This document shows positions 8,557 through 59,621 of a stretch of DNA of 64,000 nucleotides, piece after piece; position 1 is the first letter of the stretch; each line of letters begins with the position of its first letter. The stretch comes from Brachyspira murdochii DSM 12563. Its GTDB lineage: Bacteria; Spirochaetota; Brachyspiria; Brachyspirales; Brachyspiraceae. A model generated the notes under the pieces. That model was not told the origin of the DNA. It was given only the letters and a program-made list of their open reading frames with translations, and made no database searches. A program made the position numbers and the translations under genes. The stretch is from the NCBI RefSeq assembly GCF_000092845.1, contig NC_014150.1, positions 1,054,001 through 1,118,000 on the forward strand, written 5' to 3'.

Positions 8557-10403
8557 TTATCTGCTGCCGTTTGGAAGCTGGAATACATTCACTGCAGACA
8601 TCAATTCCTCAGACTGAGCAAATAATACTTCAGCAGAAGCAGTTGCCTCTTCTACTAAAGCAGCATTTTTCTGCGTTGTAGCATCCATTTCATTAACAGC
8701 AATTTTTATCTGATCTATTCCATTTTGCTGCTCAACAGCACTCTGACTTATACCTTCCATAATTTTTGAAGCATCTTCTATTTTATTTTGTATATCTATA
8801 AATATTTCCTGTGATTCTCTAGCTGTACCTGTTGCTTTATCTATTTTTTCATAAACGTTTTCTATTAAGTCTGTAATACTTTTTACTGAAGTTTGAGTAG
8901 TCTGAGCTAAGTTTCTAACTTCGCTTGCTACAACAGCAAAACCTTTACCTTGTTCTCCGGCACGTGCTGCCTCAACAGAAGCATTAAGTGCCAATATATT
9001 AGTTTGAAATGCTATATCTTCAATAATTTTTGTAATATCTTTAATTTTAGAACTAGCTTCATGAACTTCTTCTATATTTGAAGTTGTTTCAGCAACGATG
9101 TTTCCGGCATTCTCTACAGAAGTTTTTGATTCTAATATCATCTTACTTCCATTAATAGATTTATCAGCAGAATCCTTAATGGTTGATGAAATTTCAGCCA
9201 TAGAAGCAGATGTCTCTTCAATACTAGCAGCCTGACTTTCTGTTCTGTGAGCTAAACTGTATTTTGTTCTGATAATTCTTTAGCAGCCATAGTTATATTA
9301 TTAGCAGATTCCGCAACTACTCTTATAGTTTCTACAAGTTTTATTCTCATAGCTACAAATGCATTAGACAATTCTCCAAGTTCATCTTTACGTTTTATTT
9401 TTTGTTTTGTAGTTCTCAAATCACCATCTGCTATCTCTTTAGCTAAACCAACCAATATATTTAAAGGTGCTGTTATTGAACGTATAAATGCTGATATAAA
9501 GAGGGCTATAACCACTATGGCAATAATAGATATAATTATCATCATTTTCATAAGAGCAACATTAGCTTCATATATCTCGCTTTCAGTCATTGATACGCCT
9601 AATACCCAAGGCTGTGATTTTAATGTAGTGTATGAAGCTACCCTTTTATAACCGTCAAAATCATAAGTCAATATACCGCTATTTTTATTAAAAGCATCAG
9701 TATATACGCTTGGAGCTGCAGCGTTAATATTTTTCAAATTACTATGTATTTTGATAATTAAATTTTTATCTACAGCAAACATACTTCCTGTTCTGCCTAT
9801 AACTAATTTTTCTATATGAGTTTTATTCAAAGTTGACCAATCTAATATTATATATAAATAACCAATAATCTGATTATTATTATTCATCACTTTTTCAAGC
9901 AGTATCAAAGACCAGCCGCCTGTTGTTAAAGAGCGTGTAATATTTTCTCCAAACACGCCTTTGCTGCTTGAATTTATCTTTGTTCTTAAATCAGGGTGTA
10001 TATCAAACATATTCTGTCCGACTAAATCTTCATTGTCTGAATCTATTAATACAAGTCCGTTACTGTCAGATAAACCTATATTAATGGCATATTCATTTAA
10101 TGATTTAAATTTCTTAAGATTATTTAAAGCAATAGTTTTTAAATCATCAGTACGAATCTCTAAATACCTTATTAATTCTTCAGATGTTCCATATATGCTT
10201 GCAATAGTTAATTGATCATTAAACCAAGTATCAATTAATGAAGCATATCCCAATACAGTATTATTAAATCCGCTGTATGTAGCATTTTTTATACTGTCAG
10301 ATGCTTTAATTTCTGTTATAACTATTAATGCTATAATAAAAACAGTAACCATAGAAATAATAATAAGCGGCATCTTAATTTTTAGACTTTGGAACTTTCT
10401 CAT
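8557..10403 (-). pseudogene. methyl-accepting chemotaxis protein, disrupted by a single-base frameshift
   Basis: Two frames together encode one chemoreceptor. The upstream part (10403 down to 9252, 383 residues) carries a membrane anchor near residue 15, a periplasmic dCache-type sensor (LSDSNGLVLIDS, YLYIILDWSTL), a second membrane segment near residue 290 and a HAMP domain, then stops after [11 protein letters not shown]. The downstream part (about 9258 to 8557) continues in another frame with [12 protein letters not shown] and the full methyl-accepting signalling domain, including the conserved [23 protein letters not shown] tip. One missing base around 9256-9262 restores one protein of about 615 residues, collinear with the intact paralogue at 11123. 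It is either a recently inactivated gene or an assembly error. Function in the intact form would be ligand sensing and control of CheA. Confidence 0.85.
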
Positions 10404-10512
10404 ATATAATATTCTCCAGAATTAATAAAATATTTTTACATAATAAAATTATAATTATTTTTTAAAAAAAGTGTTATAGTTTTTTACAATAATAATTCAG
10501 TATAAATAAATA

Positions 10513-10908
10513 TTATTGGAATATATCCTTTATATAATCATAAGGAAGCAAAGAATTTTTATCAGTATAAAAAAAACTGCCTATAGAAGCTGTTTCTGAA
10601 GAATACACAGTAATATTACTTAACATATTTTTATTTGTAGAATAAATATTAATGTTATATCCATTCTGATAATTACCTATTTTTAGTATCACTTTATTTA
10701 GAGAGATGCTATTTAAACTTTTTACTATAAAGTCTATATTATTTGTATCTGTTATAGATATTGAAATGCCGTTATAAGATATATCTATTTTTGATACACT
10801 TTCAGGGCAGCATCTTATACCATTAATAGGTACTTTATACCATAAAACTGCTATTATTATGATAAATAATGGAATAAAACCAAAAGCTTTTTTTAATTTA
10901 TTTTTCAT
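10513..10908 (-). CDS. small membrane-anchored protein of unknown function
   Basis: The 131-residue protein has a basic N-terminus and one hydrophobic segment (residues 11-26), then a hydrophilic beta-rich domain with a Cys-Cys pair just after the membrane (GIRCCPES). The segment is more likely an uncleaved anchor than a signal peptide, since no good cleavage site follows. The domain would face the periplasm. It lies between two divergent chemoreceptor genes, but nothing shows a link to chemotaxis. I do not recognise the family. Confidence 0.6.
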   Translation of the reverse strand: MKNKLKKAFGFIPLFIIIIAVLWYKVPINGIRCCPESVSKIDISYNGISISITDTNNIDFIVKSLNSISLNKVILKIGNYQNGYNINIYSTNKNMLSNITVYSSETASIGSFFYTDKNSLLPYDYIKDIFQ

Positions 10909-11122
10909 TATTTTTACTTTTCTATATTAGGAAAGAAGTATAACATATAAAAAATTATTTATCAAATAAAAATAAAAAAAATATATATAATTACTTAATC
11001 TAATATAAAAAAAATAATAAATTGATAACTCTTTTTTTTACATAAAAAAACGATAAATAACTAGATATATTTTAGAATATATAATACTATTTAAGTGATA
11101 TTTTATTAGTGAGGCTTTGTAT

Positions 11123-12967
11123 ATGAAAAAAAGACATTCTATAAGATTTAAAATGCCATTGACTATAAGCATAATAACAACTATACTTCTAATCATCACA
11201 ATAATTATATTGTCTTACAGGTCATATGTAGGTATTACTAAATCAACATATGACGGATATCATAATACTTTAGGCGGATACAAAAGTATGCTTGATACTT
11301 GGTTTGAAGAAAATAATACCTTAGTAAGAACATATTCTATTACACCTGCCGTTATCAACTACTTGTATGGAAATAAAACACCTGAAGAAAGTACAGCATT
11401 AATAAGCACTCTTCAGCAGTTTGAAAGAATAAATAAATATTCTGTAGATATAGGAATAACCGATATAGACGGAATAATACTTCAAAACTCAAAAAGCATA
11501 AATTTGGGAAGAAATATAAAAGAATTGAGACCGGGCATTTGGGATAATTTGGTAAAAAATAATTACGATGTAGCCTACGGAACTAAAATAATAAAATCAT
11601 CTACTGGAAATGAAATGACTTTTGCTATTATGGCTGGAGTAAAAACTAACGGAATATTTGCAGGAACTATATACATGCTTCTTAATTGGGACGCTTTAGT
11701 ATCAAAACTTCAAGAGCTTCAATTATCTGAAAGCGGAAGATTGATGGCTATAAACAATGAAAGAAATATAATGCTTGATACTATAAATCAAATAAATACA
11801 CTTGCAAATGAAAGTTATGGAGAAGTTATAAACTCTGGACAATCTGACGGAACGCTTCAGTATATTTCTGATTCTAACGGAGAAAAAAGAACTGCTGTGT
11901 ACACTAAAATGGATACTATGCCTTGGACATTATCTATGGCTACTGACAATAGAATAATATACGCAGAAAATATAAATATGATAAGAATAGCTGTAATAGT
12001 ATGTATATTATCAATTATATTTATAAACCTTTTCTCTGTATCATACATCACTAAAACTATGAATCCTTTGGATAAATTAATGAAAAAAGCAAATAAAATC
12101 TCTGAAGGAAATATAGAAATAAATAAAAATGAAATTTTAAGAAAAGATGAATTCGGAGAACTCGAAAAAGCATTTAATGTAATGAGTGAAAAACTTGCAA
12201 ATGTTGTAAGCGATGTTAATGATGCTTCTAATGAGATAGTTTTAGCTTCGCAGAGAATGATGGAAAGCAGTGTAGAACTATCAGGAAGAACAGAATCTCA
12301 GGCTTCAAGTTTGGAGGAGACTGCTTCAAGTTTAGAAGAAATAGTCTCTACAATAAAAGCTTCAGCAGACAATTCAGTATCCGGAAAAAATATGATGTCC
12401 GAATCTATGGACTATATTGAAGGGGCAGCTAATATAATAGCTCAGACAACTTCAAATATAGAAGATGTTCATCAGGCAAGCGATAAAATAAAAGATATAA
12501 CTAAAATCATCGAAGATATAGCATTTCAAACTAACATATTAGCACTTAATGCTTCTGTTGAGGCAGCACGTGCCGGAGAACAGGGTAAAGGTTTTGCTGT
12601 TGTAGCAAGCGAAGTAAGAAACTTAGCTCAGACTACTCAAAGTTCTGTTAAAGATATTACTGCTCTTGTTGATAATACAGCAGAAAAAATAGATACTGCT
12701 ACAAAAACTGCAAGAGAATCTCAGGAATTATTTGTGCAGCTTCAGGAAAAAGTATCCGGAACTTCTGAATTAATGCAGAATATAAGCACTACTTCATTAG
12801 AACAAGAGGCTGGAGTTTCACAAATAAGCATAGCTATTAATAACATAGAAAGTGCTACTACGCAGAATGCCTCCTTAGCTGAAGAGTCAAGCGAACTTTC
12901 AAAAAAATTGTTTGATAAAGCTAAATTTTTAGAGGAAAGTATTAAGTTTTTTAATATTTCTAAATAG
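11123..12967 (+). CDS. methyl-accepting chemotaxis protein with dCache sensor
   Basis: About 614 residues in the classical order: a membrane segment (about 10-32), a periplasmic dCache sensor (about 35-285) containing [12 protein letters not shown] and MLLNWDAL, a second membrane segment (about 290-312), HAMP (about 313-365) and a cytoplasmic signalling domain. The last contains the highly conserved hairpin tip [23 protein letters not shown] and Gln/Glu-rich methylation helices. It senses an external ligand and controls CheA through CheW; the ligand is unknown. I chose the ATG at 11123, which has TGAGG 8 bases upstream, over a TTG six bases earlier. It is a close paralogue of the frameshifted receptor on the opposite strand. 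Confidence 0.95.
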
Positions 12968-16159: not shown

Positions 16160-16648
16160 ATGACAAACAAAATTAACAAAAAAGCAATTATATTAATATC
16201 AGTAGCAATTATGATTTTTGGTTCAGTATCTTTATTTGCTCAATACGGCAGAGGTTATGGAAGAGGATACGGTGCTGGTTATGGTGCAGGATATGGTAGA
16301 GGAGGATGCGGTGCTGGATACGGAAGAGGATATTATGGTGCTGGTTATGGCGGATGCAGATATGGTGCTGGATATGGTAGAGGATACGGATATTATAACA
16401 ATCAGCTTACTCAAGAACAAATTGATCAAATAAGAACTATACAGGATAAATATTACCCTCAAATGGACACTTTAAGAAGAGAAATATATAATCAAACACA
16501 AAATATTAATACTGAAATGAGAAAAGATGCTCCAGATCAAAATGCTATAAATACTGCAATAGATGCAAGAAGCAAAGCATCTGCTGATTTACAAAAATTG
16601 AGAACTCAATGCTTTTTAGAAATAGACAAAGTATACCAAAATAAATAA
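16160..16648 (+). CDS. exported Gly/Tyr-rich protein with Spy/CpxP-like C-terminal domain
   Basis: 162 residues: signal peptide (cleavage after LFA near residue 29), a Gly/Tyr/Arg repeat region (about 30-78, built of YGRG, YGAG and similar units) and a helical C-terminal domain (about 79-160). The last part begins LTQEQIDQIRTIQDKY and continues with helices around MDTLRREIYNQ and DARSKASADLQKLRTQ. The LTxEQ motif and helix pattern resemble the Spy/CpxP/ZraP periplasmic chaperone and metal-sensor family. An AAAGGAG site lies about 7 bases before the ATG. With the ECF-type promoter upstream and a terminator downstream, it is likely part of an envelope-stress transcript; that role is inferred. 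Confidence 0.8.
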   Translation: MTNKINKKAIILISVAIMIFGSVSLFAQYGRGYGRGYGAGYGAGYGRGGCGAGYGRGYYGAGYGGCRYGAGYGRGYGYYNNQLTQEQIDQIRTIQDKYYPQMDTLRREIYNQTQNINTEMRKDAPDQNAINTAIDARSKASADLQKLRTQCFLEIDKVYQNK

Positions 16649-51919: not shown

Positions 51920-52414
51920 ATGAATAAAAAATATATTGTAAAATACAAATATGCTTTACTTGATTTACTAAAAGATGAAAATATAAATCTATCTGATATA
52001 GACACAAGTAATATGATTGACATGTCATACTTGTTTCAAGACAGCAAAAGAAAGAATTTTGATGGTATTGAAACTTGGAATGTATCAAATGTTACCGATA
52101 TGAAATGTATGTTTAATAACGCTTTATATTTTGATAAGGATTTAACTTCTTGGAATATAGAAAAATTAAAAGAGTTTGAAGAAATATTTGATGATTCTTT
52201 TAAACATGTAAAAACTATTTTAATGTTTTACAATGCATGCAAAGATAGAAAATATAGAAAGAAGCTTCAAATTATGCTTGAATGCCTTGATATAAAAGAA
52301 GTTTATACAGAGTTAAATAATGATAAAATTAATTACAAGAAAAATAAAGAGTTTATAAAAAAGCTTGAAAATGTTTATTATGATGAATTAGAAGAATTAA
52401 TAAAAAATAAATAG
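51920..52414 (+). CDS. short DUF285/BspA-type repeat protein
   Basis: 164 residues, a minimal member of the family that follows. It has the cap region (LLKDENINLSDIDTSNMIDMSYLFQDSKRKNFDGIETWNVSNVTDMKCMFNNALYF), about one and a half 25-residue repeats and the family's helical end (DIKEVYTEL, FIKKLENVYYDELEELIKN). No signal peptide is present. It looks like one module of the larger proteins, either a relic or a functional short form. It starts 26 bases after recF with only a weak ribosome site. Confidence 0.75.
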   Translation: MNKKYIVKYKYALLDLLKDENINLSDIDTSNMIDMSYLFQDSKRKNFDGIETWNVSNVTDMKCMFNNALYFDKDLTSWNIEKLKEFEEIFDDSFKHVKTILMFYNACKDRKYRKKLQIMLECLDIKEVYTELNNDKINYKKNKEFIKKLENVYYDELEELIKNK

Positions 52415-52681: not shown

Positions 52682-54907
52682 ATGTCAGAAAAACAATTTA
52701 AGCCAAAAACTAAAGAAGAATTAAAAAAATTAGTGGAAGATAAAAGTATTAATCTTGGAAACATTGATACAAGTTTAATAACCGATATGAGCCAATTATT
52801 TAGAAGTACTGAAAGAGAAGATTTTTCAGGTATAGAAACTTGGGACACTTCTAATGTTAAAAATATGATTAGTATGTTTAACGATGCTAAAAGTTTTAAT
52901 CAGGATATAAGTAATTGGGATGTATCTAATGTTGAAAGTATGTGGTCTATGTTTGAAAATGCTTTAAAATTTAATCAGCCTTTAAATAATTGGAATGTAT
53001 CTAATGTTAAAAGTATGGATTCTATGTTTGCAGGTTGTGAGAATTTTAATCAGCCTTTGAATAGTTGGAACGTATCTAATGTTGAAAATATGTCTGGTAT
53101 GTTTAAAAATGCTGAAAGTTTTAATCAGCCATTAGACAAATGGAATACTTCTAATTTAAAACATATTATGGAGATGTTTAAAGATGCTAAAAGTTTTAAT
53201 CAAGATATAAATAACTGGTATGTATATAATGTTGACTGTATGATTTCTATGTTTGAAGGAGCTAAGAATTTCAATCAGCCTTTAGATAAGTGGAATACTT
53301 CTAATGTTGATGGTATGGGTCATATGTTTGCAGGTTGTGAGAATTTTAATCAGCCTTTAAATAGTTGGGACGTATCTAATGTTACTAGTATGTATGCTAT
53401 GTTTAAAGGTTGTACTAATTTTAATCAGCCTTTAGATAAATGGGACACTTCTAATCTAACAGGGCTTGCAGATATATTTTGTGATGCTTCTTCATTTAAT
53501 CAGGATTTAAACAGCTGGAAAACAGAGAAAGTAGAATATATGAATAATGCTTTTTTTAATGCTTCATCTTTTAATCCTGATAATATAAAAAATTGGAGTT
53601 TCAAGAAAGTTAAAGAATTTGACAGTATTTTTAATGATGTGTCATTAGAGTTAATAATAAAAATATATTCTTTTCAAAGCTCAAAATCGGCTATAAAAAA
53701 CTTTGAAGAAATTATAAATAAATTTGATATAAAAGAAGTTTATAAACTTGGATTAAAATACAATAAAAAGGCGGTAACTGAAGTTTTAAAAAAAATAGAA
53801 AATACGCATTATGAAGAATTAAAAGAGCTTATTGATAGTAAAGAAGATATTATAAAAGAGTATAAAGAATTAGAAAAGTCAGAAAATAAATCAGAAACAA
53901 AAAAAGATAGTAAGCAATCACAAATGCATCAGCCAAAAAACAAAAATGAATTAATAAAACTAATAGCAGAGAAAACAAAACTTGATAAAATAGACACTTC
54001 TTTAATAACAGATATGAGCAATCTTTTTAAAGATTCTAAATTAAAAAAGTTTGACGGTATAGAAACTTGGAACGTATCTAATGTAGTAAATATGGAAAGT
54101 ATGTTTGAAGGAGCATTAGCTTTTAATCATAATATTGAAAGCTGGGACATTTCTAAAGTTGAGAATATGAGTTTTATGTTTAAAAAATGTAAAAAGTTTA
54201 ATTATCCTATTAATGATTGGAATGTTTCTAAAGTTGTTAATATGAAAAATATGTTTGCTAATTGTGAGAGTTTTGATCAGCCTTTAGACAAGTGGAATGT
54301 AAGTAATGTAAAAGATATGTCATATATGTTTTATTATGCTGAAAGATTTAATCAAAATATTAATGATTGGGACGTATCTAATGTTGAAAATATGTCTAGT
54401 ATGTTTGAAGGTGCTAAGCTTTTTAATAGTACTTTGGATAAATGGAATGTAAGTAATGTAAAAGATATGTCATCAATGTTTTGTTTTACTAAAAGTTTTA
54501 ATCAGGCATTGAATGATTGGAATGTGTCTAATGTTATTAATATGGAAGCTATGTTTAAATTTTCTAGTTTCAATCAGCCTTTAGACAAATGGAATGTAAG
54601 TAATGTAAAAGATATGTCATCAATGTTTGATAATGCTAAAAGTTTTAATCAGCCTCTTAATAATTGGAATGTTTCTAATGTTATAAGTATTAGTACAATG
54701 TTTCGTTATGCTTCATCATTTAATCAGCCTTTGGATAATTGGGACATTTCTAATGTGGAATATATGAATTCTGTATTTTATGAAGCTGAAAGTTTTAATC
54801 AGAATTTAGAATCTTGGAATGTATCAAAAGCAGAGCCTAATCGTATGAGAGATATGTTTGATAACTCAGCAATGGAAAATAATACGCCTTCTTGGTATAA
54901 AGATTAA
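52682..54907 (+). CDS. DUF285/BspA-type repeat protein, two-module
   Basis: 741 residues. Each module has a cap (TKEELKKLVEDKSINLGNIDTSLITDMSQLF; KNELIKLIAEKTKLDKIDTSLITDMSNLF), then 25-residue repeats of the form F-N-Q-P-L-x-x-W-(N/D)-V-S-N-V-x-x-M-x-x-M-F, and module 1 ends in a helical linker (DIKEVYKLGLKY, IENTHYEELKELIDSKEDIIKEYKEL, about 360-415). These are the DUF285 / 26-residue surface-repeat type. Unlike classical surface members it has no signal peptide. AGGAGG is 5 bases before the ATG. The last repeats include three nearly identical 150-base blocks. Binding or adhesion is the usual guess, but function is unknown. Confidence 0.9.
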   Translation: MSEKQFKPKTKEELKKLVEDKSINLGNIDTSLITDMSQLFRSTEREDFSGIETWDTSNVKNMISMFNDAKSFNQDISNWDVSNVESMWSMFENALKFNQPLNNWNVSNVKSMDSMFAGCENFNQPLNSWNVSNVENMSGMFKNAESFNQPLDKWNTSNLKHIMEMFKDAKSFNQDINNWYVYNVDCMISMFEGAKNFNQPLDKWNTSNVDGMGHMFAGCENFNQPLNSWDVSNVTSMYAMFKGCTNFNQPLDKWDTSNLTGLADIFCDASSFNQDLNSWKTEKVEYMNNAFFNASSFNPDNIKNWSFKKVKEFDSIFNDVSLELIIKIYSFQSSKSAIKNFEEIINKFDIKEVYKLGLKYNKKAVTEVLKKIENTHYEELKELIDSKEDIIKEYKELEKSENKSETKKDSKQSQMHQPKNKNELIKLIAEKTKLDKIDTSLITDMSNLFKDSKLKKFDGIETWNVSNVVNMESMFEGALAFNHNIESWDISKVENMSFMFKKCKKFNYPINDWNVSKVVNMKNMFANCESFDQPLDKWNVSNVKDMSYMFYYAERFNQNINDWDVSNVENMSSMFEGAKLFNSTLDKWNVSNVKDMSSMFCFTKSFNQALNDWNVSNVINMEAMFKFSSFNQPLDKWNVSNVKDMSSMFDNAKSFNQPLNNWNVSNVISISTMFRYASSFNQPLDNWDISNVEYMNSVFYEAESFNQNLESWNVSKAEPNRMRDMFDNSAMENNTPSWYKD

Positions 54908-55126: not shown

Positions 55127-57391
55127 ATGAAATACAAACCTCAAACAAAAGAAGAATTAAAAAAATTAGTGGAAGATAAAAGTATTAATCTTGGAAGCAT
55201 TGATACAAGTTTAATAACAGATATGAGCGAATTATTTAGAAGTAGTGAAAGAGAAGATTTTTCAGGTATAGAAACTTGGGACGTATCTAATGTTGAAGAT
55301 ATGAGCAGTATGTTTAAAGGATGCAAAGAATTTAATCAGCCTCTAAATAACTGGAATACCAATAAAGTTAAAGATATGTCGAGAATGTTTGAGAGCTGTT
55401 CTAACTTTAATCAGCCTTTGGATAAATGGGACACTTCTAATGTTAGCAGTATGAACAACATGTTTCAAGAATGCAAATCTTTTAATCAAGACATTAGTAA
55501 TTGGAATGTTTCAAAAGTAACAAATATGAATTCTATGTTTAATGGGTGTACAAGCTTTAATCAAAATATAAGTAATTGGAATATAAAGAGCGTAAAATAT
55601 ATGATTTCTATGTTTGCTAATGCTTCATCTTTTAATCAGGATTTAAATAATTGGGATATAAGCAAGGTAAAAAGTATTAGTTTTATATTTAATCGTGCTA
55701 ATAGTTTTAAAATAATTCCTTATAAATGGAATTTTGATCATATAAAAGAAGATATTGATTATATATTACCAGAAGAAATGCTTGATGAAATATATTCTAA
55801 AAAAGAACCTATTAATTTGTTATGCTATTTATTTTATGATAAATATTATGAAGATAAAAATTTACAAAAAGTAGATGTTAAATTGTGGCATAAGACTTTA
55901 AAAAATTCAATTAATAAAAAAATTATTTCTTTTGTTTCAAAATTAGAAAAAGATTTTGAAAATGAACTTAAAAATGAAATAGAAGATCATTCTAATAAAA
56001 TAATTTTTCAAAATATTGAAGAAGCAGAAGAATATGTTAATAATAATTATGATAAGTCATTTGATAAAAGTATAAAATTTATAGATGATAAATATACTAT
56101 CTTTACTAAAGACAGAAAAACAAAAATAAGTTTAAATATGATTAGATTTATTTACGGAAGTTATTTAAAAGTGAAAGATAATGTTGTAAGATTAGAAATT
56201 ATTGATGATATTATTAATTTGCTTGATATAGAAAGTTTTAGAAATGCATCTTATGAAATATTTTTAAGCGACAGAAGTAAATTAGCTTCAAGAATTATTT
56301 GCGGGTTATATGGAGATGGTAAAATAGTAGAAGATTATGTAAAAAGTTTAAAAAAAGAGTTTTATCCTCGTTCATACTATGTTTATATTTTAGCTTTAAA
56401 TAAAAATAAATATGCATTAAGATTACTTTGCGAGACATCTTTAAAATCAAAAATAGAAAGCATAAAAAATGCAGCCGAATTAGCACTTGAAACTATAGCT
56501 AATAGAATGAAAGTTGAAAGATATGAATTAGATGATTTATTAGTTCCTGATTTTAATCTTGATAAGAATGGCGAGAGGATAGTATATGCTGAAGATAAAG
56601 AATATAAACTTTTTATTGATGATAATATGGAGCTTCATATTATGCATAATAATAAAGAATTAAAAACAGCACCTAAAACTTTTTCTAAAGAGTTAAAATC
56701 AGAAATAACTTTTATTAAAAAAGAGATAAAAAACATTGTAAAAAGTCAAAGAGATAAAATGATATATCTTTTAATGAATGGAAGAAAATATTCTTATAAT
56801 TTTTGGAAATCTGTTTATATAGATAATTATTTTTTTAATGTGTATGCTGTTAAATTAATTTGGAACTTATATGATGAAAATAATTTGTTTTTAACAACAT
56901 TCAGATATTTAACTGATGGAAGTTTTACTGATTATAATGATAATGAAGTAAAAATCAATGAAAATAATTCTATTAGTTTAGCATATGTAAAAGAAATGGA
57001 TAATGATATTATAGAGAAATGGAAAAAGCAATTATCAGATTATGAGATTGTTCAGCCTATTAATCAATTAAGAGTTATTGATGATTTAGAAAAAGAATTT
57101 TATTCATTTAATGATGAGTATAAATTATCTAATTTAAAAAATTTTGTTAATAAATATCCTTTTAATGAATATTATGAAGATTATTACACAATAGATGGAT
57201 ATAAATTTGAAGAGAAAGTAAGCAGTTTAGTATTAGATATATCAACAAATGGTATTAGCAGAGATAATGCTAATTTTGGAGATATGATAGAAATAGTATT
57301 AAAAATATTAAATATATCAGAAAATAATAAAGATTTAGTTGATAGATTTATGTTTGGTTGTATTTTAATGCTTGAAAATTTGGTACAATAA
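55127..57391 (+). CDS. DUF285 repeats fused to a DUF4132-like (MolR-type) domain
   Basis: 754 residues. Residues 1-190 match the cap and about six 25-residue repeats of the neighbouring proteins, nearly identical to 52682 at the start. From about residue 200 the sequence changes: helical, HEAT-like stretches (about 290-465, e.g. VVRLEIIDDIINLLDIESFRNASYEIFL and NKYALRLLCETSLKSK) and then RMKVERYELDDLLVPDFNLDKNGER, MIYLLMNGRKYSYNFWKSVYI and AVKLIWNLYDENNLFLTTFRYLTDGSF. The last part resembles the DUF4132 domain found in MolR/WGR-type proteins. No signal peptide. I know of no established function for that domain. A 70-bp repeat array begins 5 bases after the stop. Confidence 0.82.
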   Translation: MKYKPQTKEELKKLVEDKSINLGSIDTSLITDMSELFRSSEREDFSGIETWDVSNVEDMSSMFKGCKEFNQPLNNWNTNKVKDMSRMFESCSNFNQPLDKWDTSNVSSMNNMFQECKSFNQDISNWNVSKVTNMNSMFNGCTSFNQNISNWNIKSVKYMISMFANASSFNQDLNNWDISKVKSISFIFNRANSFKIIPYKWNFDHIKEDIDYILPEEMLDEIYSKKEPINLLCYLFYDKYYEDKNLQKVDVKLWHKTLKNSINKKIISFVSKLEKDFENELKNEIEDHSNKIIFQNIEEAEEYVNNNYDKSFDKSIKFIDDKYTIFTKDRKTKISLNMIRFIYGSYLKVKDNVVRLEIIDDIINLLDIESFRNASYEIFLSDRSKLASRIICGLYGDGKIVEDYVKSLKKEFYPRSYYVYILALNKNKYALRLLCETSLKSKIESIKNAAELALETIANRMKVERYELDDLLVPDFNLDKNGERIVYAEDKEYKLFIDDNMELHIMHNNKELKTAPKTFSKELKSEITFIKKEIKNIVKSQRDKMIYLLMNGRKYSYNFWKSVYIDNYFFNVYAVKLIWNLYDENNLFLTTFRYLTDGSFTDYNDNEVKINENNSISLAYVKEMDNDIIEKWKKQLSDYEIVQPINQLRVIDDLEKEFYSFNDEYKLSNLKNFVNKYPFNEYYEDYYTIDGYKFEEKVSSLVLDISTNGISRDNANFGDMIEIVLKILNISENNKDLVDRFMFGCILMLENLVQ

Positions 57392-57395
57392 TAAA

Positions 57396-57779
57396 TTAGA
57401 TATTAATAGCGTAGGCGAATATAACAATAACGAATGAGCCGAAGCATCTAATAACTGAAAAGTTATTAGATATTAATAGCGTAGGCGAATATAACAATAA
57501 CAAATGAGCCGAAGCATCTAATAACTGAAAAGTTATTAGATATTAATAGCGTAGGCGAATATAACAATAACAAATGAGCCGAAGCATCTAATAACTGAAA
57601 AGTTATTAGATATTAATAGCGTAGGCGAATATAACAATAACAAATGAGCCGAAGCATCTAATAACTGAAAAGTTATTAGATATTAATAGCGTAGGCGAAT
57701 ATAACAATAACAAATGAGCCGAAGCATCTAATAACTGAAAAGTTATTAGATATTAATAGCGTAGGCGAATATAACAATA
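57396..57779 (+). repeat. 70-bp direct tandem repeat array, each full unit with a perfect hairpin
   Basis: The unit is exactly 70 bp: the marker GTAGGCGAAT recurs at 57411, 57481, 57551, 57621, 57691 and 57761. Units are virtually identical; the first has CGAATGAG where later ones have CAAATGAG. Each complete unit carries inverted arms ATCTAATAACT and AGTTATTAGAT around the tetraloop GAAA, an 11-base perfect stem (first at 57446-57471, then every 70 bases, five in all). The array fills the gap between the DUF4132-like gene and the start codon of the next gene, breaking off in the sixth unit. No frame stays open through it. Confidence 0.95.
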
Positions 57780-59621
57780 ATGGAAAAGAAAATGGAAAAA
57801 CAATTTAAACCAAAAAATAAAGAAGAATTACAAAAATTAGTACAAGATAAAAACATATATTTGGGTGATATTGATACTAGTTTAATTACTGATATGAGCA
57901 GATTATTTGAAAATAGTAAGAGAGAAAATTTTGATGGAATTGAAACTTGGGATACATCTAATGTTACAGATATGTCAGATATGTTTATGGGGGCTGTAAA
58001 CTTTAATTCAAATATAAATAATTGGAATGTTTCAAAAGTTACTAATATGTTTGGAATATTTGCAAGTGCTAAAAACTTTAATCAGCCATTAAATGATTGG
58101 AATGTATCTAATGTAACAAATATGGAATTTATGTTTTCTGAAGCCAAAAATTTTAATCAGCCTTTAGATAAGTGGGATACTTCTAAAGTTATCAGTATGA
58201 GATGTATGTTTTATAAAGCTGTAAATTTCAATCAGGATTTAAATAATTGGGATACCTCTAATGTAGAAAATATGCAAAGTATGTTTTCAAAGGCTTATAA
58301 TTTTAATCAGGCTCTTAATAATTGGAATGTCAGCAAAACAGAAAAAATGCTTGGTATGTTTGAGAATGCTTATAATTTTAATCAGCCGCTTGATAAATGG
58401 GATACTTCTAATGTTTTATTTATGAACTATATGTTTTTTAATGCGAAAAGTTTTAATCAGGATATTGGAAACTGGAATGTCTTTAATGCAATTAGTATGT
58501 CATATATGTTTAGTGGTGCTGAAAGTTTTAATCATTCTATAGAAAATTGGATTATTAATGAGGCTTGTTTTATTAATGATATTTTATCAGGTGCTTCTTC
58601 TTTTAAGAATGTGAAGTCTATATTAAATATATATTTTCTTTCCAAAGGAAATGATAGAAAAAAACTTTTATTAATGCTTGAAAACTGCGATATAAAAGAA
58701 GTGTATAAAGAAGTTATAAAATATAATAAACTTAAAGATTTTATTAAAAAACTTGAAAATACTTATTATGATGAATTAAAGGAATTAATTGAAAAGAAAG
58801 AAGATATTATAAAAGAACATAAAAAATTAAAGGCTAATAATATAAAATTAAAAGAAAATGAAAAATATAAACCTAAAGATAAAATAGAATTATTAAAATT
58901 AATAAAAGAAAAAATAAAATTTAATAAAATAGATACTAGCTTAATAACTGACATGTCTGGATTATTTCAAAACTCAAAACTTAAAAAATTTGACGGCATT
59001 GAAACTTGGGACACTTCAAACGTAGAAGATATGCATAACATATTTAGAGGAGCTATGTATTTTAATCATAATATAGAAAATTGGAATGTATCTAATGTTA
59101 TTAATATGGAATATATGTTTTCAGGCTGTACTAGATTCAATCAGCCTCTTAATAATTGGGACGTTTCTAATGTAAAGTATATGAGTTTTATGTTTTCAGA
59201 TTGTGCAAGTTTTGACAGTGATTTAAGCAGATGGAATACATCTAATGTAGAAATAATGAGTTTTATGTTTAAAAGTGCTTATTCTTTTAATCAGGATATT
59301 TCTAAATGGAATGTAAGCAAAGTAAAATATGCAGATGCTATGTTTAAAGATGCTAAGAGTTTTAATCAGCCTTTAAATGATTGGGATATGAGTAATATTA
59401 AATCTATAAACGGAATGTTTCATAGTGCTTCAAATTTCAATCAGCCTTTAGATAAATGGAATCTATCTAATATTAAAAATATATCATTTGCATTTTATAA
59501 CTGCTCAAATTTTAATCAGGATTTAGAATCTTGGAAATTGTCAAATGATGTTAATATGAAATATGCCTTTTCAGATTCGCTTATAGAAAAAAAACCTCCT
59601 TCTTGGTATGTAGACATATAG
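57780..59621 (+). CDS. DUF285/BspA-type repeat protein, two-module
   Basis: 613 residues: two caps (NKEELQKLVQDKNIYLGDIDTSLITDMSRLF; KIELLKLIKEKIKFNKIDTSLITDMSGLF), each followed by 25-residue repeats (FNQPLNDWNVSNVTNMEFMF and so on) with a helical linker between modules (DIKEVYKEV, FIKKLENTYYDELKELIEKKEDIIKEHKKL, about 300-355). No signal peptide. The ATG at 57780 is the first base after the repeat array, and there is no proper ribosome site before it; the ATG at 57792 has only GGAAAAGA upstream. So its expression may depend on the array or may have been damaged by it. It ends SWYVDI, like the SWYKD end of 52682. Confidence 0.88.
   Translation: MEKKMEKQFKPKNKEELQKLVQDKNIYLGDIDTSLITDMSRLFENSKRENFDGIETWDTSNVTDMSDMFMGAVNFNSNINNWNVSKVTNMFGIFASAKNFNQPLNDWNVSNVTNMEFMFSEAKNFNQPLDKWDTSKVISMRCMFYKAVNFNQDLNNWDTSNVENMQSMFSKAYNFNQALNNWNVSKTEKMLGMFENAYNFNQPLDKWDTSNVLFMNYMFFNAKSFNQDIGNWNVFNAISMSYMFSGAESFNHSIENWIINEACFINDILSGASSFKNVKSILNIYFLSKGNDRKKLLLMLENCDIKEVYKEVIKYNKLKDFIKKLENTYYDELKELIEKKEDIIKEHKKLKANNIKLKENEKYKPKDKIELLKLIKEKIKFNKIDTSLITDMSGLFQNSKLKKFDGIETWDTSNVEDMHNIFRGAMYFNHNIENWNVSNVINMEYMFSGCTRFNQPLNNWDVSNVKYMSFMFSDCASFDSDLSRWNTSNVEIMSFMFKSAYSFNQDISKWNVSKVKYADAMFKDAKSFNQPLNDWDMSNIKSINGMFHSASNFNQPLDKWNLSNIKNISFAFYNCSNFNQDLESWKLSNDVNMKYAFSDSLIEKKPPSWYVDI

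Follow-up and report, generated by a model that had tools for sequence, protein, structure and literature searches.

In the gut spirochaete Brachyspira murdochii DSM 12563, a group of DUF285 genes adjoins recF within the window (the whole stretch of 64,000 nucleotides analysed here). Directly after recF, a DUF285-only open reading frame of 164 aa (positions 51920..52414) and another of 741 aa (52682..54907), whose 22 repeats are arranged in two arrays, precede a gene with one open frame of 754 codons (55127..57391), in which Pfam recognises both DUF285 and DUF4132. A 70-bp tandem repeat in 5.5 near-perfect copies (57395..57780) lies between this DUF285-DUF4132 fusion gene and a DUF285-only frame of 613 aa with 17 repeats (57780..59621), and all of these features are read on the forward strand. 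The three DUF285-only genes were identified as open reading frames with Pfam matches, and the repeats of the two longer ones were counted with a repeat profile. As well, the 70-bp unit is present as one copy each in genomes G005 and G008 and in none of the other 23 genomes of the genus. In B. innocens and G005, the gene group is located between LUD-type and flagellin genes, the names recF, LUD-type and flagellin being readings of the sequences. Scans for promoters and Rfam families yielded no signal exceeding chance or threshold. Elsewhere in the window, tandem repeats of 27-54 bp (16243-16386) are found inside a short frame, apparently rich in glycine, tyrosine and arginine.

The fusion protein begins with an N-terminal cap (residues 1-52, 55127..55282), which contains an alpha helix at residues 8-16 and hardly differs from that of the DUF285 gene upstream. 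It continues with six tandem 25-residue DUF285/PARCEL repeats (residues 51-200, 55277..55726), which were detected with a profile derived from 38 repeats of the window's three longer DUF285 frames and are predicted to form an LRR-like solenoid. The head repeats are matched by TIGR02167 and by the DUF285 family PF03382, the latter with an E-value of 3.3e-64 in Pfam (214.5 bits against a cut-off of 25; best stretch residues 20-125). The initial annotation had described a cap and repeats shared with the neighbouring proteins, almost identical at the start, and this is borne out by a DNA identity of 94.4% over 48 cap codons between the fusion gene and the gene of its 741-aa neighbour. The head is closed by a helical module (residues 201-291, 55727..55999) of a type that also closes or splits five of the genome's seven free-standing DUF285 proteins (domain E-values 1.5e-34 to 1.7e-8), the other two giving weak matches only, and no control protein matched it better than E 0.011. 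Its presence in free-standing proteins implies that a complete DUF285 protein, module included, precedes the tail.

The tail (463 aa, residues 292-754, 56000..57388) is common to all 14 DUF4132 proteins of the genome, and its boundary is marked by a tail-only protein of 465 aa from the same genome. Thirteen columns of the tail alignment are invariant. Its DUF4132-like character, previously read from the letters, is confirmed by the Pfam family PF13569, which matches residues 510-648 (56654..57070) with an E-value of 8e-22 (78.5 bits against a cut-off of 27) over profile positions 2-140 of 179. A HEAT-like segment had also been proposed; Pfam recognised no HEAT repeat in the fusion protein, and what stands of the proposal is a helical-repeat array at about residues 297-471 (56015..56539) in the AlphaFold2 models, with modest structural similarity to HEAT/alphaRep structures. 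The C-terminal alpha/beta domain (residues 655-754, 57089..57388) is YugN/KA1-like, with a Z of about 8. A WGR domain was searched for with Pfam, and no match up to E 1 was obtained in the fusion protein.

The AlphaFold2 model of the whole protein, built from a 33-row alignment, has a mean pLDDT of 89.5 and a pTM of 0.61, so that the domains are predicted with confidence but their relative placement is not. The tail modelled alone reached a pLDDT of 92.1 and a pTM of 0.84. The head model resembles LRR proteins, such as the RPP1 LRR (Z 13.7) and Treponema pallidum TpLRR (Z 12.7, rmsd 4.1, 195 aligned residues), a likeness that belongs to a predicted model and for which all Foldseek E-values were above 0.001. 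For the tail model, Foldseek yielded no match in PDB or among viral models at an E-value of 0.001 or lower; in this model, the Z-value mentioned above came from the last 100 residues only. Two solved structures raised by phmmer as tail relatives (3brs, E 0.008; 4zv6, E 0.15) proved unsupported, the profile search being empty up to E 1. When the predicted tail model was compared, no recognised catalytic fold was matched. This does not favour the earlier suggestion of a recognition head on an effector, and the genes that accompany DUF4132 in other bacteria point instead to a role as subunit or adaptor in a MoxR AAA+ machine.

Many bacteria carry DUF285/BspA proteins at their surface, and the available text of PMC2897892 places three B. 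pilosicoli bspA genes among the outer membrane proteins. On these grounds, the fusion protein might be taken for an exported BspA-type adhesin, with the DUF285 head at the cell surface and the tail as anchor or cargo. However, a signal-like hydrophobic N-terminus was found in none of the 16 DUF285 frames of the genome (highest 19-residue Kyte-Doolittle mean 0.84 over the first 30 starting positions), and the relatives of the tail are linked to cytosolic-type AAA+ machinery, which makes the adhesin highly improbable; it was rejected as the main reading on the first of these results. The hydrophobicity scan thus detected in none of these frames the signal peptide or membrane anchor that defines the BspA type; three paralogues (863, 866 and 903 aa) exceed 1.6 further in, within the tail. 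The lack of a signal peptide in the fusion protein, as first annotated, is consistent with the scan, and its action inside the cell is supported as probable. The accompanying label of surface-type repeats had to be abandoned: besides the hydrophobicity result, nine of the 16 frames carry a DUF4132 tail and the other seven are clustered beside a gene that does. The view that DUF285/BspA genes of Brachyspira encode surface antigens is corrected by these results, at least for the B. murdochii genome.

These 16 frames account for 54 DUF285 matches in the genome (one contig, 3,241,804 bases). The 14 DUF4132 proteins comprise the nine DUF285-headed fusions, four alpha-headed proteins with long alpha-helical N-terminal parts and the one tail-only protein. 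At locus L034, the tail-only DUF4132 protein of 465 aa (10234-11631) is found near an alpha-headed one of 1160 aa within a 16-kb region.

The same architecture occurs in other genomes, as head and tail share a single frame in four orthologues (G005, L088, L089 and G017) as well as in eight paralogues of the B. murdochii genome. An in-frame TAG separates the two parts in one relative (G015/L090, also L042 1573-3747; B. sp. G79), otherwise 90% identical, and would fit two genes that are translated separately or were fused by an assembly error; against the single frames, which come from several assemblies, such an explanation is hardly credible, and translation as one protein is upheld.

The family is widespread in the genus: with hits to either part counted, the fusion protein finds matches at E 1e-20 or better in 25 of 26 genomes. 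Among the best 80 of 114 relatives, the scan of named genomes gave 75 loci, 70 of them from Brachyspira, and repeats at E 0.01 or better were present in 36 of the 75 frames and in none of the five from other genera. The closest relatives possess six or seven repeats, the paralogues differ in repeat number, and relatives at 54-58% identity align only from residue 159 or 198 onward, with short heads in those inspected. When 65 tails were placed in a tree, with head types assigned by hand from the repeat profile and the sequences, the 38 rows with DUF285 heads (including L109, with a truncated head and a repeat E-value of 0.61) constituted one side of a branch supported at 100/100 and recovered in 100% of 200 bootstrap trees, while the nine tail-only rows (100/100) and the 18 alpha-headed rows (100/96) are each grouped. 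This single clade of tails fits one fusion followed by amplification across Brachyspira. The domain shuffling proposed at the outset is hence retained as the joining of a repeat head to a DUF4132 tail, though not as an event local to one gene, since the pattern fits one old, amplified fusion.

A phage or plasmid origin of the fusion was rejected on the following searches: whole-protein tblastn against 86 plasmid and 113 phage records gave none with 80% coverage, only DUF285-side stretches being aligned among the matches listed, and 82 pattern matches in viral contigs included no relative. In genome G017, directly after the fusion gene, a frame cut by the contig end (L044 2523-3086) carries ankyrin-like repeats, as read from the sequence, with a DUF285 cap behind them.

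The 741-aa neighbour has a cap closer to that of the fusion gene than to those of its B. innocens and G005 counterparts (86-87% identity), and the near-identity is better explained by gene conversion. Compared with B. innocens, the head of the fusion gene has accumulated more synonymous change (25/141 sites) than the tail (13/246 sites, p 0.00014), an excess confined to this locus among six tested DUF285-headed orthologue pairs; no head-tail synonymous difference was detected in the other five or in two alpha-headed pairs, and fast head evolution was accordingly rejected as a general rule. At nonsynonymous sites, the head changes faster than the tail in the fusion-gene pair and in the 903-aa pair (p 0.029), more slowly in the 789-aa pair (p 0.044) and no differently in three pairs, and the synonymous value of the first 60 codons is raised in the 613-aa neighbour too. 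Diversification of the head is thus weakly indicated at best.

According to the available text of PMC2996958, PARCEL repeats spread within and between genomes, and a DUF4132 gene might have acquired a mobile PARCEL-type repeat on a single occasion, after which the family would have grown by duplication and gene conversion, with no selection for recognition. Cap conversion at this locus and the missing general acceleration of heads agree with such a spread. However, purifying selection acts on the tails (dN/dS 0.15-0.28 in six DUF285-headed pairs) and the family is retained across the genus, and we regard this non-adaptive origin as unlikely.

Synonymous divergence in the tail of the fusion gene is below that of seven other orthologue pairs (13/246 vs 281/1787, p 2.6e-6). 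Both this low divergence and the altered gene neighbourhood might stem from recent exchange between lineages; Brachyspira genomes in any event show little conservation of gene order, as far as the available text of PMC2897892 goes. In B. hampsonii, the fusion gene stands without companions at the LUD-type/flagellin site (L089 3095-5389), having lost the DUF285-only genes that flank it on both sides in B. innocens (L088 764-7339). As the B. hampsonii fusion begins like the lost upstream gene, a deletion by recombination between caps is suggested.

DUF4132 genes of other bacteria are found in defined company. In the E. coli record, DUF4132 adjoins MoxR, DUF5682 and VWA genes at the yeh locus, where the two DUF4132 genes are presumably MolR and YehI. 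The same partners plus SWIM accompany DUF4132 in Sinorhizobium and Agrobacterium, and the locus order in Ruminococcus is SWIM-DUF4132-MoxR-DUF5682, the SWIM protein being assigned there by similarity to other SWIM proteins since Pfam gave none. The partner MoxR AAA+ ATPase is of the YehL type, and Rhodococcus carries DUF4132 without these partners beside it. In the 'plasmids' collection, 25 records matched a Sinorhizobium DUF4132 protein, six of which were excluded for matching its WGR end only; 16 of the remaining 19 also contain DUF5682, at gaps of 26-6642 bases, and three have no DUF5682 match. The chance value of 2.5e-52 for this linkage overstates the independence of the records, as eight of the 16 are from E. 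coli and several are chromosome-sized.

The B. murdochii genome encodes all five components of the MoxR-DUF5682-DUF4132-VWA-SWIM set. The four partners were found at one locus per search and far apart, and none of them adjoins a DUF4132 gene. The MoxR protein is 50% identical to that of Sinorhizobium (E 1e-104) and 61% to that of Ruminococcus, the VWA protein was matched at 38% identity (E 1e-77), the DUF5682 protein was recognised by Pfam (E 1e-84; 28% identity to Ruminococcus), and the SWIM protein is homologous to both operon SWIM proteins. For bpMoxR (PF20030), the MoxR protein scored 21.9 bits, below the cut-off of 27. In a phylum sample of 149 genomes, DUF4132 occurs in 23, all of which also have DUF5682, found in addition in the fragmented G003; this co-occurrence amounts to few independent events since these genomes all belong to one family or clade. 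MoxR (E 1e-40) was detected in 22 of the 24 genomes with DUF5682. In sister genera, MoxR, DUF5682 and VWA are clustered in G073 (L221), and DUF5682 and VWA in G146 (L222/L223), the single DUF4132 gene of either genome being on another contig. The control genome of Deinobacterium chartae possesses DUF5682 and gave no DUF4132 match. Taken as evidence from gene linkage and gene content, these data make an association of DUF4132 with the MoxR/DUF5682/VWA/SWIM set probable.

The fusion protein would then be one of a Brachyspira family of soluble adaptors. Its LRR-like DUF285 solenoid, closed by the helical module, may bind a specific intracellular target, and its tail, with helical repeats, DUF4132 core and YugN/KA1-like end, may dock on the MoxR AAA+/VWA/DUF5682/SWIM machine, a coupling that we propose because the genes are linked in several phyla and all parts are present in the genome. 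By comparison with other MoxR-VWA systems, the AAA+ ring might remodel or activate the target presented by the head, and the outcome could be defence, protein quality control or regulation. We hold this whole chain, from a head that selects a target to a tail that couples it to the machine, with less confidence than the association alone, at somewhat under an even chance. An extension of it, which is possible but doubtful, is that interchangeable DUF4132 adaptors, nine of them with LRR-like heads, feed one such machine, the heads defining targets and changing by repeat gain and cap gene conversion, in analogy to NLR- or F-box-like recognition subunits that feed one ATPase.

Alternatively, these proteins might be self-contained intracellular sensors or conflict proteins (e.g., anti-phage), in which the head senses and the tail responds, with no need for the MoxR machine. 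Their genes are scattered and share no conserved neighbour at the loci inspected, there are many paralogues with variable repeat number, and tail-only and alpha-headed versions likewise stand alone, all of which speaks for such proteins. However, PADLOC gave no match better than E 0.06 among the five proteins compared, and nothing convincing as a known defence family; moreover, no catalytic fold is recognised in the tail, and DUF4132 is strongly linked to MoxR-DUF5682 genes outside Brachyspira. Self-contained action is thus considered rather unlikely.

The proposed adaptors share features with several known systems. The tail is homologous to E. coli MolR/YehI (28-30% identity over about 340 aa for a Brachyspira tail), whose genes adjoin MoxR, DUF5682 and VWA genes, while the Brachyspira genes are dispersed; by annotation, WGR is present in one of the two E. 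coli proteins and a DUF285 head in none, and the fusion protein is without WGR. Leptospira interrogans LIC_12901 is described in the available text of PMC11674859 as a protein of 1616 aa with six LRR, WGR and DUF4132 and no signal peptide. It is thus likewise a spirochaete protein that combines leucine-rich repeats with DUF4132 and has no signal peptide; compared by description, it differs in its repeat class, in its WGR and in being a single protein. Given this precedent, a repeat head is in principle nothing new. DUF285/PARCEL repeat proteins have the same head repeats, and the fusion differs from them by its DUF4132 tail and the lack of a membrane-targeting start, although PARCEL proteins without membrane-targeting sequences are also mentioned in the accessible part of PMC2996958.

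MoxR-vWA ternary conflict systems (VMAP, iSTAND and FtsH classes) share a MoxR AAA+, a VWA and a large variable partner with the DUF4132 set (PMC7159879, available text), in which the third component is DUF4132/DUF5682/SWIM instead; SWIM, MolR, WGR, YehL and DUF4132 are absent from the main text of that paper. As far as their available texts go, such systems (PMC7159879, PMC10907252) offer a functional parallel to the proposed coupling. RavA-ViaA, in which a MoxR AAA+ works with a VWA partner as a proposed chaperone, belongs to the RavA subfamily and not to YehL, itself a recognised MoxR subfamily, and DUF4132 is unmentioned in the available text (PMC3893208). No publication on the DUF285-DUF4132 combination was found, most subscription journals lying outside the coverage, and the available DUF4132 literature, of which there is little, has no mention of Brachyspira. 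Searches for DUF5682, for DUF285 with Brachyspira, and for YehL with YehP and MoxR found none. DUF4132 and DUF5682 are families with no assigned function. DUF4132 is now tied to a particular set of genes, and in one lineage it is the DUF4132 subunit alone that exists in many copies (14) and has received binding heads, which leads to the testable proposal that DUF4132 is the subunit for target recognition.

Finally, a DUF4132 gene of Deinococcus is strongly upregulated when the repressor DdrO is depleted, according to the available text of PMC8533742, which by analogy hints at stress regulation of DUF4132. As well, at locus L201 (3157-6695), the SWIM gene adjoins an OLD-like TOPRIM (DUF3226) gene and an AAA_15 ATPase gene, which are possibly a defence pair.
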